This document shows, in pieces, positions 40,079 through 52,290 of a stretch of DNA of 64,000 nt. The notes beneath the pieces are model-generated. The model saw nothing but the letters and a program-made list of their open reading frames with translations, had not been told where the DNA came from and made no database searches. The stretch's first letter is position 1; each line of letters begins with the position of its first letter. Origin of the DNA: an uncultured Planctomycetota bacterium. Its GTDB lineage: Bacteria > Planctomycetota > Phycisphaerae > Sedimentisphaerales > UBA12454. A program made the translations under genes and the position numbers. The stretch is from NCBI GenBank assembly GCA_903847315.1, contig CAINDG010000008.1, forward strand, positions 1-64,000, read 5' to 3'.

Positions 40079-43000
40079 CTACTGTTTTTGCTTATCCAAT
40101 GCCTTTTTTAAATCGTTCTCGGTAATCTTCCCTTGTTCAACAAGAATCTCTCCAAGTTTCTTTTTCTCTTTAAGCTTCCTGGGAATAGTAAAATAAAAAG
40201 TCGAACCCTTACCCTCTTTTGATTCTGCCCATAATTCTCCTCCATGAGCAAAAATTATATCACTGGAAATCGCCAGCCCAAGGCCGGTGCCGCCTTTTTT
40301 CTTATCTCTTGTGCTGTCTAATTGCTCAAAAACCTGAAAAAGTTTCTTTATATCTTCGGCTTTAATACCAATACCGGTATCCTGAACCGCTATATGCACC
40401 GTATCGTCTTTCTGCTTTGTGCGGATAGTAATATTTCCTTTTTCGGTATATTTTATGGCATTACTCACCAAATTAGTAAGCACCTGAACTATCCTGTCTT
40501 TATCAAAACTTATCTTGGGTATGCTTTCATCTATATCCACTGCCAAATCCAGCCCCTTTTCTGTCGCCACAAGACGCATTTCATTACTGACATCCTGCAC
40601 TACCTGGTTAATATCGTTTTTCCGGATATCAAACTCCAGCTTCCCTGATGATATTTTCTGGTAATCCAAAACATTATTAATCAGGCGTCCCAATCTGTCG
40701 GTATTTCTCTTGGCGGTACTCAAAAGGTCCTTCTGCTCATCATTGATATCTCCTGCCAGGCCCTCTAAAACAAGATTTACGCCCTCTTTGATTGCTCCCA
40801 GCGGGCTTCGGAGTTCATGTGAAACCATAGAGGTGAACCTCGACTTTATCTCTACAGCGGCTTTTTGCTCATCAGCGTTTCTCAGTTCTTCTTCCAATCG
40901 CTTGTTCTCGGTAATGTCGCGTCCTTCGGAAATAAGAAATATCACCTTGCCATCTGCATCTTGAATGGGCTTCATCGAAAAATCTATATAATGAATGCTT
41001 TTATCCGCAGCGAGGTAGGTTGCCTCGAAACGCACAATTTCGCCTCGTGCAGCTTTTATTATGGCTTCACGCAGCTTATTCTGCATTTCTGTCGAATGTG
41101 CCCACCAGGGCGTATCCCAGAAAGGTTTGTCTAAACAATCCGATTCACCAATTCCTGCAAACTGCATTGCCGTCCTGTTTACCTCGAGGAGTGTACCGTC
41201 CAGTGCCATCATGCCGACAAACTGAAAAGACTGGTCAAAAATGGCACGAATTTTTCTTTCTTTTGCCAGCAGCGCATTCTCCATATTCTTTTGCTCGGTG
41301 ATATCCCTGACAGTTGCATGCAGGAATACCTCCTTTCCCTGCTCGACTCTCGATAACAGCACATTTGCCAAAAACTCCTCGCCGTTTGCACGCTTATGTG
41401 TCCACTCGAAAAAATGTGAGCCTTTGCGCATCGCCGTCTCTATCATATCTTTGGCCTTGACGTCCGAGGCTCGCCCGTCAGGCTGATGCACCGGAGATAA
41501 CTTCCAGGGTTCATAGGTTAAAAATTCCGCCTCGTTTTTCACCCTGAACATTTTTATCGTAGCAGGGTTTCCGGATGTGAATTTCCACGACGGCGGTTCA
41601 AGGGTCATAATAGCGTCACGGGACGACATAAACAGACTTCGATACTTATCCTCGCTCTCCCGCAGCAGGTCTTCTGCCTGCTTGCGCTCGGTGGTATCAT
41701 GAAAGAACCCCATTAGATACGTCTTCCCGGCAATTGTGATAGGTGTTGAATTAATGTCAGCATAAAAAATGCTGCTGTCTTTTCTCTTTACGGGTAAATC
41801 TTTGGCTAAGTGAATTTCTCCTTTTGCCTGCCTTTCAAATTGTTTAATAACGCAAGGAAGGTCTTTTTCGGGATGAATATCCATAACCCCTAAATCTTCA
41901 ATTTCCTCAGAGTTATAACCGAGCATCCGGCAGATTGAATTATTACCCATGTAGAATTTCCTGGTTTCCGTATCGACCACCAGTATTCCATCAACCGCAT
42001 TGTCAAAAACAGTTTTGAATTCTTCCTCATTTGCCAGCGCCAATTCCCTCTCCAATTTCCTGCGTTCGGTGATATTGATAAAAATCGCGACCACGCCGTC
42101 AATCTTGTTATCCATAGTCCGGTACGGCCTGATATATACCGAATACCAGTTTTCCTCTTTGTCCTCTATCTCAAATGCCTTTGGATGAAGGGTCTTTATT
42201 ACCTCCAAAAGCATTCCCTCGAAATCCGGAATATCTATATTGAGTTTAATTTTACTTATCGGTCTGCCGATATCTGATGAAATTACATTAAGAACCTTTT
42301 CTGCCTGTGGAGTTACTCTGCGTATACATAAGTCCGTCCCCATCATAATGACCGGCATATTGATACTGCCAAGTAAGTTTATCAGGTCGTTATTCAGCAG
42401 AATGACTTCCTTATTACGGTTCTGCAGTTCCTCGTTAGTGGTGACCAATTCTTCATTTGAAGACTGCAGTTCCTCTTTGGCAGTTTCCAGTTCCTCGTTA
42501 GTGCTTAGCAGTTCTTCATTACTTGACAGTATTTCCTCATTAGCCGTTTTCACTTCTTCATTCGCGTTTTCCTGTTCTTCTATAACTGTCTGGAGATATT
42601 CTTTTGTTTCCGTAAGCTCTTTCTGCAGGGAATCAACATATTTTTCATCTTTAACAGATTTCCTGTGCGCCTTTGGTAAATTCTTAGGCCTGACTGCCTT
42701 GGGAATTTCGTCAAAAAGCACCAGAAAGAATTCTTCTTTAAGGGGTCCGGATTTCACAGGGATAACTGTAACATTAATTCTCATCCTGCGGCCATTATAC
42801 TTTATATCCTCCGCTTCTATTTTTACTGTATGTTTTGTTCCCCTTGCTTTATATATCGCCGTGTGCAAAGGCTGAAACAGTCCTTTCGGCGCCAATTTGA
42901 ACAGGTTAAGGCTCGGTTTGCCTGCCGCTGATTCAAGATAGCGGCCGGTATGACCGCGGAACTGAACAACCTCCATATCACTGTCTATCAGCACCCCGCA

Positions 43001-44617
43001 AAGGGCGTATTCGCTAAGCACAACCTGCTCTACCATGTTCTCAATATCGGTTTCTTTGCCTTTCCTGGTACCTGTCTTTTCCTTAATTTCTAATTTCTTC
43101 AGCGGATAATATTTCTGACCTAATTCAAGTTTAGACTCTCCCGGCAGATATTTTTTTACGAAAATTCTCTGCTTTCTGTCCAGCGCCTTAAAAAGATTTG
43201 AATAACCGCCTGCGGATTCCGAGTTTCCTAAAACCAGAAACCCGCCGGGTCTTAAACCGTAGTGAAAATTATGGAATACTTTTTTCTGTAAAACCGGCTG
43301 AAAGTATATAATCAGGTTACGGCAGCTTATAAGGTCTAAATTGGAGAAAGGCGGGTCGCTGAACACATTCTGTTTTGAAAAAATACACATCTCCCTCAGC
43401 AGTTTGGAAACCTTATAAGAGTTGTCTGTTTTGGTGAAAAATCTTTTTAATCGCTCAGGCGTAACATCGTTTTTTATATTCTTGCCGTAAATGCCCCGGC
43501 GAGCCTTATCAATATTGCTGTCGCTTACATCGGTTGCAAAAATCCGGACAGGGAACGCGCTCCTTTTGTTGCCCAGCGATTCCATAAGGCATATAGCAAT
43601 AGAATAAGCCTCCTCGCCGCTCGAACATCCCGGAACCCATATCCTTGTCTCCTGACCTTTTGTCTTGTTTTTAAGAATCGCGGGTATTATCCGTTTTTTC
43701 AATGTATGAAAAACTTTCGGGTCACGGAAGAAACTGGTAACCTTTATCAATAAGTCTTCATAAAGCTTTTCTACCTCGTCTTTATTCTCGCGCAGGAACT
43801 TTATGTAGCCCCTGAGATTTTCCAATTTCAGTAAAACCATCCGCCGTGATATGCGTCTGCTGATGGTACTGGTTTTATAATGAGCCAAATCCAGCCCCTT
43901 GGCCGAACGCAATATGTCAAGAATACCTTCAATGCCTTTATCTGGCGTTACGATTGATTTATCTGCTTTAACAAGCCGCCCAGACGATATAAGGGGATGT
44001 TTTGCTATACATTCCAGCTCACTGGCAATCTTTTTGGGCGAAAGCACAAAATCCACACATCCGGCCCCAATCGCGCTTTGCGGCATACCGTCGTATTTAG
44101 CGGTTTTTTCATCCTGAGCAAAAATAATACCACCTTCGGCCTTTATAGCCTCGGCTCCCAGCGTCCCGTCTGTTGCTGTTCCTGAAAGAATAACTCCGAT
44201 AGCCCTGTTCCCATGCTCTTCTGCCAGCGAACGGAAAAACCAGTCTATCGGCATACGTTTTAACCCTGCATCGCGCATCTTGTTGAGTTTTAGTCTGCCG
44301 CCCGCGATAGAAACATTAGTGCTCGGCGGTATTACATAAACATTATTGATTTCTATGGGCATACCGTTCTTTATTTCTTTTACCGGCATTTTTGTTAATC
44401 TGGCAAGCAGTTCCGTCAGCATACTTTTATGTCCCGGTGCTAAATGCATTATAAATACAAATGCCATTCCCGGTTTAGCTGACAGATTTTTGAGTAATTC
44501 CTGATATGCTTCAAGACCGCCGGCTGATGCCCCGATACCGACAATAGGAAAATATGCTGTTTTGCGATTAGCGGGTATAATCTTTTTCTTTTTTGGCGAT
44601 GCTTTTGTTTTTTTCAT
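40079..44617 (-). CDS. CheB-CheR-PAS hybrid sensor kinase, 1512 residues
   Basis: A very large cytoplasmic signalling protein. Residues ~22-205 form a CheB methylesterase with Ser31 in GASAGG, His58 in IMHLAPGH and Asp150 in LSGTATDGT, all in place. Residues ~225-490 form a CheR methyltransferase (FRDPKVF, SAM loop WVPGCSSGEEAYSIA, CRNLIIYF). A coiled coil of NEE/L repeats spans ~655-745, followed by about four PAS domains (~750-1245). The HisKA has its His in MVSHELRSPL, and HATPase_c ends near 1485. The last ~27 residues read LGEILVEQGKITENDLKKAL, like half of a GspE/MshEN-type motif. No receptor gene is adjacent. It heads a run of three receivers. Confidence 0.93.
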   Translation of the reverse strand: MKKTKASPKKKKIIPANRKTAYFPIVGIGASAGGLEAYQELLKNLSAKPGMAFVFIMHLAPGHKSMLTELLARLTKMPVKEIKNGMPIEINNVYVIPPSTNVSIAGGRLKLNKMRDAGLKRMPIDWFFRSLAEEHGNRAIGVILSGTATDGTLGAEAIKAEGGIIFAQDEKTAKYDGMPQSAIGAGCVDFVLSPKKIASELECIAKHPLISSGRLVKADKSIVTPDKGIEGILDILRSAKGLDLAHYKTSTISRRISRRMVLLKLENLRGYIKFLRENKDEVEKLYEDLLIKVTSFFRDPKVFHTLKKRIIPAILKNKTKGQETRIWVPGCSSGEEAYSIAICLMESLGNKRSAFPVRIFATDVSDSNIDKARRGIYGKNIKNDVTPERLKRFFTKTDNSYKVSKLLREMCIFSKQNVFSDPPFSNLDLISCRNLIIYFQPVLQKKVFHNFHYGLRPGGFLVLGNSESAGGYSNLFKALDRKQRIFVKKYLPGESKLELGQKYYPLKKLEIKEKTGTRKGKETDIENMVEQVVLSEYALCGVLIDSDMEVVQFRGHTGRYLESAAGKPSLNLFKLAPKGLFQPLHTAIYKARGTKHTVKIEAEDIKYNGRRMRINVTVIPVKSGPLKEEFFLVLFDEIPKAVRPKNLPKAHRKSVKDEKYVDSLQKELTETKEYLQTVIEEQENANEEVKTANEEILSSNEELLSTNEELETAKEELQSSNEELVTTNEELQNRNKEVILLNNDLINLLGSINMPVIMMGTDLCIRRVTPQAEKVLNVISSDIGRPISKIKLNIDIPDFEGMLLEVIKTLHPKAFEIEDKEENWYSVYIRPYRTMDNKIDGVVAIFINITERRKLERELALANEEEFKTVFDNAVDGILVVDTETRKFYMGNNSICRMLGYNSEEIEDLGVMDIHPEKDLPCVIKQFERQAKGEIHLAKDLPVKRKDSSIFYADINSTPITIAGKTYLMGFFHDTTERKQAEDLLRESEDKYRSLFMSSRDAIMTLEPPSWKFTSGNPATIKMFRVKNEAEFLTYEPWKLSPVHQPDGRASDVKAKDMIETAMRKGSHFFEWTHKRANGEEFLANVLLSRVEQGKEVFLHATVRDITEQKNMENALLAKERKIRAIFDQSFQFVGMMALDGTLLEVNRTAMQFAGIGESDCLDKPFWDTPWWAHSTEMQNKLREAIIKAARGEIVRFEATYLAADKSIHYIDFSMKPIQDADGKVIFLISEGRDITENKRLEEELRNADEQKAAVEIKSRFTSMVSHELRSPLGAIKEGVNLVLEGLAGDINDEQKDLLSTAKRNTDRLGRLINNVLDYQKISSGKLEFDIRKNDINQVVQDVSNEMRLVATEKGLDLAVDIDESIPKISFDKDRIVQVLTNLVSNAIKYTEKGNITIRTKQKDDTVHIAVQDTGIGIKAEDIKKLFQVFEQLDSTRDKKKGGTGLGLAISSDIIFAHGGELWAESKEGKGSTFYFTIPRKLKEKKKLGEILVEQGKITENDLKKALDKQKQ

Positions 44618-48112: not shown

Positions 48113-48760
48113 TTATTCGTTCAACTCAGGGATTCTGTTTGACTTCTTTTTTACAGCCGGGGCTGGCTGGCTTGGCACAGGCGGATTGACTTTTGGTGCG
48201 ATTTTAGCAGGACAGGTATGATTTTGGATATTAGACCGGCTGACAACCTCAACAGCTTTTGCAATATTTTTATCGCCATATTGTAATGAAAGGCCGGAAA
48301 CAAATCCACAGGTATTAACAACACGGCCTGATGACTTTTCTATATCGTCCGGCAGATATTTCGAGACTAAAGAAATCTCTTTTAAAGGTGATATCGCCAC
48401 GGCAAAAAGAATAAAATTGACAAGGACAAATCCGCCGACAAACCCCAAAATCGGGCTGCTTATTTTATCAACTATTACCGGGAATATTGCATAGTAAGTA
48501 GTTGTCAAAAAAGTGGAACTAAGGTAATTAGTGATAATGAAATAAACAGCTGCTATCACGACCATAACCACGACATTAGCATAAGAGCCGAGGAAATTCA
48601 GTCGCTGCCCTGCCCATGAGAGAACCGGGGAGGTAAGCATCAAACCGAGATATACGGCAATAATAACATTGAATAGAAATGCCCAGGTCGCGAAGAGCCC
48701 CTTCTTGTAAGCCCAAACCCCGAACAAGGCCGCAATGATTAACGAAATAAGTTCAGACAT
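48113..48760 (-). CDS. CvpA-family-like membrane protein
   Basis: The 215-residue protein has four or five membrane helices in its first ~140 residues (LISLIIAALFGVWAYKKG and GFVGGFVLVNFILFAVAI among them). Its topology and Gly/Pro turns recall CvpA/colicin V production proteins. The C-terminal ~70 residues are soluble and end in a Pro/Lys-rich tail. It lies 9 bp downstream of the PilB/GspE-type ATPase gene. The two may act together. The CvpA assignment is by pattern and moderate. Confidence 0.75.
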   Translation of the reverse strand: MSELISLIIAALFGVWAYKKGLFATWAFLFNVIIAVYLGLMLTSPVLSWAGQRLNFLGSYANVVVMVVIAAVYFIITNYLSSTFLTTTYYAIFPVIVDKISSPILGFVGGFVLVNFILFAVAISPLKEISLVSKYLPDDIEKSSGRVVNTCGFVSGLSLQYGDKNIAKAVEVVSRSNIQNHTCPAKIAPKVNPPVPSQPAPAVKKKSNRIPELNE

Positions 48761-48769
48761 ATTTCTGTC

Positions 48770-50317
48770 CTAATTAGCAGTAACTTTTTTAACTTCGTCA
48801 AGCGATGTAATGCCGGCAACAGCATGTTTCATCGCCTGTTTCTGCAAGTTGGATTTCATTTGTTCATCATCTTTAGTACTGTTTGCAACGGTAATTTTAC
48901 CCATAGAAATCTTATTTTTGGCTTCGTTATCAATAATCATAACATCGAAAACTCCGATTCTGCCTTTATAGCCGCTATCATTACATTTGCTGCAGCCTAC
49001 CGGGGCGCATATTGTCTCAGGGTCGATGTTCTTTTGCTGAAAAGCCTTTATCTGCGATTCACTTAACGCAGCAATTGTTTTGCAATTATCGCAGAGTTTT
49101 CTAACGAGTCTCTGTGAGATTACAAGGTCAAGACCAGATGCCATTAGCAAGGGGCTGATTTTCAGGTCTAAAAGACGTACCAGTGAAGCGGTGTTGCTGC
49201 TGCTGTGCAGGGTAGCTATGACGAGATGTCCTGTCTGGGCAGCCTTTAAGGCGATAGATGCCGTTTCATCATCACGAATCTCGCCTACACAAATTATATC
49301 CGGGTCCTGCCTCAGCACGCTGCGAAGAGATTTTGCGAAAGTAATGTCCGCCTTCGGATTGACCTCAATCTGGCTGGCGCCTGCCAGAACATATTCGATC
49401 GGGTCCTCAATCGTAATCACATTTCTTGTGTAAAAATCTATTTCTCTAAGCATGGCATAAAGTGTAGTGCTTTTGCCGCTGCCGGTTGGGCCGCAGAGAA
49501 GAATCATTCCAGACTCTTTAGCTAAAACATTCCTGACAATCTGACAGGCCTGCTCATCCATTCCAATTTCAGGCAGGGTCTGAGGCGCAAGTTTCTGGTT
49601 TAATATCCTTATGGAAAGTTTTTCGCCATGCAATACACCGGCACTGGCAACACGGAACGAAATTGTACCGTCAGGCACCTTCGCAACAAAAGCGCCATCC
49701 TGCGGCCGACGTCTTTCCGCTATGTCCATTCCAGAAATGGCCTTTATGCTGTTTACCACGGCTGCACAGGCCTGGGCCCCGATTCTTTTATATGGTCTCA
49801 ATACCCCGTCAACCCTGAACCTGATGTCGTATTCGAAATCTTCAGCCGGATTGATGAGTATATCGCTGGCCAGCAGTTCAACCGCATCGCTTATTAACCG
49901 CTCCGCAACAGCAACCGTCTGTCTTGCATCACTATTTTTGCCGGATTGGCCGCCATAGACTTCATTAATACTTTTGCCCGAAGGGTCGAGAAGTATTATA
50001 GAAGAGCTGCCCCGTGCACCGGTAATTTTTGTGTACTTAATTGCCTTTACAGCATGACCAAAAGTTGAAACCATTGCTTCAACAATTGTAATCCCCGTTT
50101 GCTCGACCTTCTTACAAACGGCATAGGTAAAGGCTAAAAACAGGACAAAAGGAGCTGCAAAAAGCATTAGTATGTTCATCCAGGCCTTTAAACGGCCACT
50201 TATCAGGGAGCTAAACTCAAAACGCTTAATCAGATACATACACAGATAGAACCAGAGGATAAGAAACGCCATTTTAAATGGGCTAAACAACCATTCTGTC
50301 TCAGCAAGTAATTTCAA
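48770..50317 (-). CDS. PilB/GspE-type ATPase with N-terminal membrane helices
   Basis: The 515-residue protein has the secretion/pilus ATPase core: Walker A GPTGSGKST, an Asp box (EDPIEYVLAGASQIEVN), Walker B DPDIICVGEIRDDETA, and the His box GHLVIATLHSS. A zinc tetracysteine site near residue ~420 has CDNC and CSKCNDSGYKGR. The N-terminus is unusual: two membrane helices (~12-30 and ~45-68) take the place of the usual soluble N1/MshEN domain. Family ATPases are normally soluble and dock on membrane partners. It is paired with the CvpA-like gene. No pilin or GspF gene is adjacent. Confidence 0.85.
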   Translation of the reverse strand: MKLLAETEWLFSPFKMAFLILWFYLCMYLIKRFEFSSLISGRLKAWMNILMLFAAPFVLFLAFTYAVCKKVEQTGITIVEAMVSTFGHAVKAIKYTKITGARGSSSIILLDPSGKSINEVYGGQSGKNSDARQTVAVAERLISDAVELLASDILINPAEDFEYDIRFRVDGVLRPYKRIGAQACAAVVNSIKAISGMDIAERRRPQDGAFVAKVPDGTISFRVASAGVLHGEKLSIRILNQKLAPQTLPEIGMDEQACQIVRNVLAKESGMILLCGPTGSGKSTTLYAMLREIDFYTRNVITIEDPIEYVLAGASQIEVNPKADITFAKSLRSVLRQDPDIICVGEIRDDETASIALKAAQTGHLVIATLHSSSNTASLVRLLDLKISPLLMASGLDLVISQRLVRKLCDNCKTIAALSESQIKAFQQKNIDPETICAPVGCSKCNDSGYKGRIGVFDVMIIDNEAKNKISMGKITVANSTKDDEQMKSNLQKQAMKHAVAGITSLDEVKKVTAN

Positions 50318-50430
50318 GTCTTATTGCCCCTCGCAAATCCAAATTTTCCTTAATCCTTTAATGTTAATAAACAAGATAAGATAATGCAACAAAAAAAAGT
50401 TAAATAGGTAAGGCATAACAGGCTTTTTTA

Positions 50431-50458: not shown

Positions 50459-50520
50459 CTGTTATATCTGAAATTATTCTTTGGCGGTCTTGATTGTCTA
50501 ATAACTTTGGAGATGTACAG

Positions 50521-52290
50521 ATGAGCAAAAACTTTTTGATGTTTTGTGGATTGTGTATTTTACTTAGCCCGCTTATTGTTAAGGGGCAATCTTCGGTTGA
50601 AGACGATTGGAATGATTTTCTACATTATACAGTCATAGGGCGATTCGACCTTGCATCTGGTTTCGCACAGAAGATTATCGACAGCAACTCCGATCCCGTG
50701 ACCCTGTTGAAATTAAGCGAGGACAACCCTCGAGGCTACGCAATTCTTGTACGTGTCAGCTCAAACAATCCTGAGATAGCCCCCCTTGCGACAAAGATTC
50801 TTGATATCATTGAAAAGGGACGTCTTGTTCGCCGAACCAACCCTGAAATCATAACGGAAGAAATCAAAAGGCTCAACAGCACTGTTCGCGGCAAATATAC
50901 CGCCATAGAGAGACTCCGCAACGCAGGCGAATATTCGATACCCTATATGCTCGACGCTTTGGCGGACGAACAAAGAAAAGAGGAATTCGCCAATATCACC
51001 TCCGCCCTGCCGGAAGTAGGACGAGCTGCGATAAGACCTCTGACAGCGGCGCTCGCGATGGACAACACGGCAGTAAAAGCTGAAATTATAAAAGCTCTGG
51101 GCAAAATCGGCTATCCGGAGTCGCTTGGGTATCTCAAATACATCGCCGAGAACGATAGTTCCGAACAGCTCCGAAATCTTGCGGTTGCGTCAATAAACCA
51201 GATAGACTCGGCAAATGCCGGCAAAACCGCGGCAGAACTGTTCTTCCAAACAGCGGAAAATTACTATTATAAGGCAGATTCTCTTGCACCGATTTCCGAT
51301 GGAAATAGCGCAAATATATGGTTTTGGGATAAACAGGCCGCTCGGCTGGTTCGCCTGCAGGTCAAAAAGACATATTTTTATGAGCTTATGACAATGCGGT
51401 GCTGCGAATGGGCATTGCGAGCCGACAAGGATTTCGGTGGAGCCATCTCACTGTGGCTGTCAGCCTTTTTCCGAACAGACGGCAAGAGCATCGAATATCC
51501 TGAATACTTCGGCAAAGGTCACGCCGATGCTATGACTTACGCGACAACCGCGGGGCCGGAATATCTCCATGGAGTTCTCGAACGGGCGGTGAAAGACAAC
51601 GATAGCGTTATAGCACTGGGAGCAGTCGAGGCTTTGGCCAAAAATGCCGGCGAAAAATCTCTTATGTACAGACTGCAAACTTCACAGCCGCTTATCGAGG
51701 CTTTATCCTTCAACGACAGGTCTGTCAGGTACAGCGCCGCGATAGCACTGACAATGGCGGAGCCTGCTGAAAAGTTTACCGAAAGCGAACTGGTTGTAAA
51801 TAATTTGGCTGAGGCGATTACCGCACAGGCGGACGCAAACTGGCCGAAGAACACTGCTGATAACTATGCGATTCGTTCGGCCCAGGCAATGCTGAAATCA
51901 GCTGAATCACGAAACACCGCTATTAATCTTTCCGGCGCTTTAGAAGCAATAATAAAGACGACAGAAGACAAGCGGGATGAAATGAAAATATTTGCCTGCC
52001 AGATACTGGCGTATATGTCGAGCCCTGACGCTCAAAGGGCTATCGCTAATGCAGCCTTAAACAAGGACAATCCAATTGATATCCGAATTTCGAGTTTTGA
52101 AGCTTTGGCAATATCCGCAAAAGTTAATGCTAACCAACTGCTTGACAGTCAGATAGACCAGATTTACCAGCTTGTAGAATCGCGGGAAATCAAACAGGAA
52201 CTGCGGTCATCGGCGGCTGCGGCCTTTGGTGCGCTGAATCTGCCGAGCAGACGGGTTAAAGACCTGATTCTCGACCAGTCGAAAATGTAA
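50521..52290 (+). CDS. Exported HEAT-repeat protein
   Basis: The 589-residue protein has a signal peptide (~1-21, ending near VKGQSS). Repeats of the HEAT type cover much of the rest, for example YMLDALADEQRKEEFANI, AIRPLTAALAMDNTAVKAEI, ALGKIGYPESLGYL and SVRYSAAIALTMAEP. It is probably a periplasmic scaffold. I chose the ATG at 50521 because GGAG lies 9 nt upstream; an in-frame TTG at 50494 lacks support. It is followed by a small unknown gene and a beta-propeller gene on the same strand. Confidence 0.85.
   Translation: MSKNFLMFCGLCILLSPLIVKGQSSVEDDWNDFLHYTVIGRFDLASGFAQKIIDSNSDPVTLLKLSEDNPRGYAILVRVSSNNPEIAPLATKILDIIEKGRLVRRTNPEIITEEIKRLNSTVRGKYTAIERLRNAGEYSIPYMLDALADEQRKEEFANITSALPEVGRAAIRPLTAALAMDNTAVKAEIIKALGKIGYPESLGYLKYIAENDSSEQLRNLAVASINQIDSANAGKTAAELFFQTAENYYYKADSLAPISDGNSANIWFWDKQAARLVRLQVKKTYFYELMTMRCCEWALRADKDFGGAISLWLSAFFRTDGKSIEYPEYFGKGHADAMTYATTAGPEYLHGVLERAVKDNDSVIALGAVEALAKNAGEKSLMYRLQTSQPLIEALSFNDRSVRYSAAIALTMAEPAEKFTESELVVNNLAEAITAQADANWPKNTADNYAIRSAQAMLKSAESRNTAINLSGALEAIIKTTEDKRDEMKIFACQILAYMSSPDAQRAIANAALNKDNPIDIRISSFEALAISAKVNANQLLDSQIDQIYQLVESREIKQELRSSAAAAFGALNLPSRRVKDLILDQSKM

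Follow-up and report, generated by a model that had tools for sequence, protein, structure and literature searches.

A membrane-anchored PilB/GspE-family ATPase and its CvpA-like partner in Planctomycetota and Lentisphaeria

Standard ATPases of the PilB/GspE family attach to GspL or PilM through their N1 domain and power the GspF/PilC platform. The stretch of DNA analysed here (the window, 64,000 nucleotides of an uncultured Planctomycetota bacterium) encodes a member of this family, called mGspE, that carries hydrophobic N-terminal segments of its own and is followed by a gene for a CvpA-like protein. The locus raises the question of whether the two neighbours belong together and, if so, what kind of device such a motor might serve. 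An earlier note on this DNA had proposed a minimal, unusual secretion or envelope machine.

The two-gene operon and its products

Both genes lie on the minus strand, the CvpA-like gene downstream of mGspE after a gap of 9 bp, and the earlier note was right in coordinates, strand and spacing (Table 1). The TTG start of mGspE is backed by an upstream GAGGGG and by the same start position in orthologues. The pair is flanked by a divergent HEAT-repeat gene upstream and a convergent TPR gene downstream, so the operon of the window consists of only two genes. The observation that no pilin or platform gene lies near was borne out, as searches with PF00482 (GspF) and PF07963 (pilin N_methyl) gave no match on the 87.9-kb window contig C8. 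An exported HEAT-repeat protein (window 50494-52290; L107, L109, L113, L117, L220) neighbours the pair in two of the order's families. In one, its gene lies upstream and diverges from the pair; in the other, it lies downstream and converges on it, as an in-place inversion of the pair would produce. At 40079-44617, the window also encodes a 1512-aa hybrid protein that looks like a CheB-CheR-PAS-histidine kinase.

Table 1. Features of the mGspE-CvpA operon, in positions of the window
Feature	Position	Strand	Basis
CvpA-like (Colicin_V) protein, 215 aa, four hydrophobic segments and C-terminal helices	48113..48760	-	Pfam, model
mGspE, membrane-anchored PilB/GspE-family (T2SSE) ATPase, 515 aa, TTG start	48770..50317	-	PF00437 match, orthologues, model
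Zinc-binding cysteine pairs of mGspE, C409xxC412 ... C442xxC445	48983..49093	-	Motif alignment
Walker B region of mGspE, DIICVGEIRDDE, intact	49265..49300	-	Motif alignment
Walker A of mGspE, GPTGSGKS, intact	49469..49492	-	Motif alignment
Conserved linker SIILLDPSGKSINEVYG, mGspE residues ~105-122, joining the membrane part to the N2 domain	49952..50005	-	Alignment
Second hydrophobic segment of mGspE, residues 49-68, with an invariant proline (P56) at its centre, either a full span or re-entrant	50114..50173	-	Hydropathy, alignment, model
First hydrophobic segment of mGspE, residues 13-34, W22 invariant in alignment A1	50216..50281	-	Hydropathy, alignment, model
GAGGGG, probable ribosome-binding site, 9 nt upstream of the mGspE TTG	50327..50332	-	Read from sequence

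The catalytic part of mGspE is of a familiar kind. It matches Pfam T2SSE (PF00437) with 372 bits against a cut-off of 24.9, and the Asp box EDPIEY and the His box GHLVIATLHS complete, together with the Walker motifs, a full catalytic set that is accompanied by the two CxxC pairs; these catalytic and zinc elements are mostly invariant or nearly so among 25 orthologues. A broken ATPase is ruled out for the window, since every motif is intact, and the protein is predicted to hydrolyse ATP, presumably as a hexamer. The AlphaFold2 model (pLDDT 85) has its best PDB matches in Thermus PilF, Geobacter PilB and Vibrio GspE (E ~1e-40, 36-37% identity), and a sequence search of the PDB put the same families on top. 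A Tad, archaellum or VirB11 identity was rejected because PilB/GspE/PilF rank first by both sequence and fold. The core is therefore PilB/GspE-like, yet the protein is not a standard member, as its scores fall far short of the curated cut-offs of the GspE equivalog TIGR02533 (389.7 bits, cut-off 630.25) and the PilB equivalog TIGR02538 (382.7 bits, cut-off 675.65). It shares with PilB/GspE the N2 and C-terminal ATPase domains, Walker A and B, His and Asp boxes and CxxC zinc pairs, but lacks the N1 domain, has membrane segments of its own and adjoins CvpA in place of GspF/PilC, GspL/PilM or pilin genes. Compared with the PilT/PilU family (TIGR01420), the mGspE of the window is PilB/GspE-like in its zinc motif, has the membrane anchor and is without an adjoining PilT.

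The T2SSE match covers only residues 133-509, and residues 1-132 are composed of two hydrophobic segments and the conserved linker, with no N1-type domain (T2SSE_N/MshEN) among the Pfam matches. Hydropathy places the segments at about 12-30 and 49-67; in the AlphaFold2 model, helices span residues 13-34 and 41-74. Hydropathy, model and Pfam coverage agree with the earlier reading that two N-terminal membrane helices take the place of the usual soluble N-domain. The loop joining the segments is positively charged (mean net +1.7); this charge, the shortness of the second segment and its central invariant proline leave room for a re-entrant second segment in place of a complete membrane crossing.

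To our knowledge, no mechanism has been established for CvpA, a widespread protein, and we know of no work that connects Escherichia coli CvpA with a secretion ATPase. The partner in the window shares with the CvpA/Colicin_V family, for example E. coli CvpA, the four-helix N-terminal region, matching Colicin_V (PF02674) at residues 3-128 with a marginal 29.6 bits against a cut-off of 29.3, while relatives score up to 46.1. Unlike the E. coli protein, the planctomycete CvpA-like gene is fixed beside a secretion-type ATPase, and in Phycisphaerae its product carries a long C-terminal region. The model (pLDDT 85) has the four hydrophobic segments and two further helices. A sequence search found no PDB chain for the protein, and none of the fold matches of its model among solved structures was convincing. 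The CvpA of enterobacteria and vibrios is needed for deoxycholate resistance by a mechanism that is not known (PMC6705877). This envelope role, which has no known pilus involvement, and the window contig without a pilin gene would suit a filament-unrelated, ATP-driven transport or maintenance device in which CvpA is a channel or a lipid or polymer carrier gated by the ATPase ring. We regard such a device as unlikely, since the PilB-like core and the PilT adjacency described below suggest pilus-type mechanics and the unconvincing fold matches of CvpA included no recognised transporter fold.

Conservation of the gene pair

The earlier note had held that its reading would fail if close homologues lacked the N-terminal helices or if the two genes did not co-occur. 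The first ortholog set came from 40 relatives, which yielded 24 full-length orthologues and, with the window, 25 loci. Every one of the 25 has the N-terminal hydrophobic segments, and in every one a CvpA-like gene follows immediately on the same strand, which argues for a pairing beyond chance. Neither of the two refuting conditions was thus borne out. Profiles of the partner and of the ATPase N-terminus, both run over the same 297 genomes of the class, gave 54 strong matches for the ATPase and 55 for CvpA, with 52 paired. Of the order's 69 genomes, both genes occur side by side in 53 (counting two loci split by contig ends as pairs) and both are missing from the other 16; no genome has one without the other. 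The apparent exceptions were read by eye: G199 is a missed ATPase and G214 an ATPase cut by a contig end, while the unpaired matches of G280 and G230 sit at contig ends; two of the four were thereby proved to be pairs, and the other two are loci split by contig ends. In G010 (L106 8790-13325), the ATPase-CvpA pair is duplicated in tandem.

Beyond the order, the N-terminal profile brought up 80 loci in the named collection, 75 of which could be scored (a readable ATPase and enough downstream sequence). CvpA is directly downstream of 39 of the 41 membrane-anchored ATPases, the other two (L167, L179) being followed by another gene, and GspF occupies this position in none of the 41. The 34 ATPases without a predicted anchor are followed by GspF/PilC in 17 cases, by other genes in 15 and by CvpA in two; one of these, L125, has its start at a contig end, and the start of the other, L135, may be mis-called. 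The association between anchor and CvpA over the 75 loci has a Fisher p of 1.8e-16, a value that overstates independence as the loci are related. The membrane-anchored loci belong to Planctomycetota (Phycisphaerae, Isosphaeraceae, Planctomycetaceae and records labelled Kuenenia) and Lentisphaeria; in the latter, the CvpA partner is present at L130-L133 and L135. In L133 (409-3972, Lentisphaerae), the ATPase lies within a 1187-aa open frame that also encodes additional hydrophobic segments; this may be a fusion or a frame that was called too long. An ordinary GspE paralogue beside a chance CvpA neighbour would fit a catalytic core that is 36-37% identical to standard PilB/GspE, but it fails against the strict pairing across the order, several planctomycete families and Lentisphaeria; we consider it extremely improbable, and chance adjacency is ruled out by the pairing statistics of the order genomes and the named loci.

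When the search with the ATPase profile was widened to the phylum, it led to homologues of a Planctomycetia type (the class name is inferred), which have a signal-peptide-like start and extra membrane segments and are followed by Colicin_V genes. Two of these partners score 46.1 and 32.8 bits against Colicin_V and three score 21.6-26.7 (cut-off 29.3); they were located through the ATPase alone, CvpA having no part in the search. A profile of the longer membrane region found it in 102 of 392 phylum genomes, including nearly all genomes of the class of the window (only G190 was listed without it), and its absence elsewhere in the phylum may partly reflect limited profile sensitivity.

The ancestry of the anchored forms was examined in a quick tree rooted with soluble ATPases as the outgroup. 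The membrane-anchored ATPases and one soluble FHA-GspE form one clade (support 100), within which 43 catalytically dead mGspE sequences make up a single clade (support 84) adjoining active Isosphaeraceae/f48 forms (support 98), and Lentisphaeria, G300, the FHA-GspE and the window type form another group (support 96). In a wider sample, also analysed with a quick tree, a single clade of membrane-anchored forms was not rejected (p-AU 0.774) and had the higher likelihood. When the N-terminal membrane part of the window type was compared with that of the wider group by hhalign, the probability was 8.6% and E was 0.004, evidence of homology that is weak alone. The pair of the window is a catalytically intact, order-specific member of a lineage of Planctomycetota and Lentisphaeria.

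PilT triads and the catalytically dead clade

PilT is the pilus-retraction ATPase, and its family supplies a recurrent operon partner of many mGspE relatives. The genome of the window itself has a second Colicin_V match, on contig C31, where PilT, a membrane-anchored GspE-like pseudo-ATPase and a CvpA with a long C-terminus follow one another (L188 8138-12144). This PilT passes TIGR01420 (379 bits against a cut-off of 319), and the Walker A of the GspE-like protein reads GPKKSGVT. This gene order is found throughout the class. In all 27 aligned membrane GspE-like proteins of such triads, the Walker A lysine is lost and the Asp and His boxes are degraded, with both CxxC pairs kept in every one, whereas the Walker motifs of the neighbouring PilT are intact in 17 of 17 checked. 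The first triad set had been chosen by CvpA; a second set of 19 further loci, picked by the membrane profile of the ATPase alone, has CvpA in 18 and PilT in 18 and carries the dead form into other planctomycete families. The association is therefore true in both directions. Altogether, the 43 dead sequences come from several planctomycete families and retain the anchor and the gene order.

Active forms are also accompanied by PilT, which lies upstream of active mGspE in 13 loci (L090 and L134 being the same sequence), as it does for the dead form at most of its loci, and is intact wherever its motif was read. L192 (2685-9490) and L206 (3640-10461) have a four-gene order of PilT, an active soluble FHA-domain GspE, a dead membrane GspE and CvpA. 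The C-terminal region of CvpA in some dead triads (L190, L192, L194-L197) is several hundred residues long and had no Pfam match where scanned (L190). In L194 (2309-4375), a protein read from its sequence as PilM-like is encoded upstream of the long CvpA gene, a possible link to pilus assembly.

What the motor may serve

The genome of the window has thirteen T2SSE matches, and GspF is found on six other contigs (C40, C38, C29, C25, C7 and C44), each gene adjoining another ATPase. It also encodes 27 pilin-type N_methyl proteins, mostly in ordinary clusters and none near the window or the C31 locus. GspF is encoded elsewhere in 78 of 78 tested genomes carrying the anchored ATPase and CvpA (no genome was found without it), so mGspE could act on a distant ordinary GspF platform. 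It could accordingly be an auxiliary motor of a conventional type IV pilus or type II secretion system working on GspF/PilC, with CvpA as an extra anchor or regulator. This would agree with the presence of GspF in all 78 genomes, the pilin-type proteins of the own genome, PilT as the recurrent neighbour, and L224, whose triad has PilT, GspF and pilin genes ~3-6 kb away. The exclusion of GspF from the position next to all 41 anchored ATPases speaks against it, as do the commitment of each own-genome GspF gene to a different ATPase and the strict retention of CvpA, which is not predicted for a loose accessory. On balance, we judge an auxiliary motor to be somewhat improbable.

Our preferred reading, to which we give an even chance, is that mGspE and CvpA form one membrane complex, a PilB/PilT-type motor that uses its own anchor and CvpA instead of GspL/PilM and GspF/PilC. 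Like its relatives, mGspE would be a hexamer, with its N-terminal segments keeping it at the membrane, and CvpA, which occupies the genomic slot of GspF/PilC, would most likely couple the ATPase cycle to the membrane. The substrate might be a pilin-like fibre or some other component of the envelope. The hexamer, the physical complex and the role of CvpA as a platform are what we infer from the gene facts. In a fuller form, a PilT ring and a membrane GspE-like ring, either active or a conserved pseudo-ATPase, might serve the same CvpA-containing platform, and the ring of a dead mGspE might be a fixed docking or regulatory ring. Only tentatively do we extend this to an ATP-driven machine in the envelope of Planctomycetota and Lentisphaeria, with CvpA in the place of GspF/PilC and a membrane-embedded GspE-like ring, dead in one large clade, that would dock or couple the PilT motor.

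There is a realistic chance that mGspE-CvpA is a distinct machine. The claim of the earlier proposal that an unusual anchored motor is functionally tied to CvpA has strong support from a gene order conserved in Planctomycetota and Lentisphaeria. A secretion or envelope machine is a putative assignment. The word minimal is doubtful, as PilT is in the operon of many lineages, the own genome has a second triad, and conventional pilus and secretion parts are encoded elsewhere in the genome. As far as sequences allow, the system appears to be an envelope machine that has not been described before, with a catalytically dead motor subunit in many lineages. The literature search found no paper combining CvpA, GspE and Planctomycetes, and the papers naming both GspE and CvpA were pathogen or isolate genome reports only; the main text of a survey of type IV filaments names neither CvpA nor planctomycetes (PMC6668835). 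The strict partnership with a PilB/PilT-type motor provides a concrete biochemical role for CvpA to test, and a self-anchored pilus-type ATPase without an adjoining GspF gene challenges the view that this motor family works on GspF/PilC only. The conservation of an anchored pseudo-ATPase beside an intact PilT over many planctomycete families suggests a two-ring design.

Crateriform structures that span the envelope, join the membranes and bear dextran-binding fibres are an unexplained feature of planctomycetes (PMC5394234), which also have large orphan families of pilin-like/DUF1559 proteins (PMC8567305; PMC10632474). Genetic tools exist for them (PMC11958385). A machine of CvpA and PilT could power the pilus-like fibres or crateriform structures, and a link of mGspE-CvpA to these structures or to the orphan pilin-like proteins is a speculation that the known fibres, protein families and genetic tools make testable. 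The orphan pilin-like proteins have a phyletic range similar to that of the machine, but the own genome has only the 27 N_methyl proteins.
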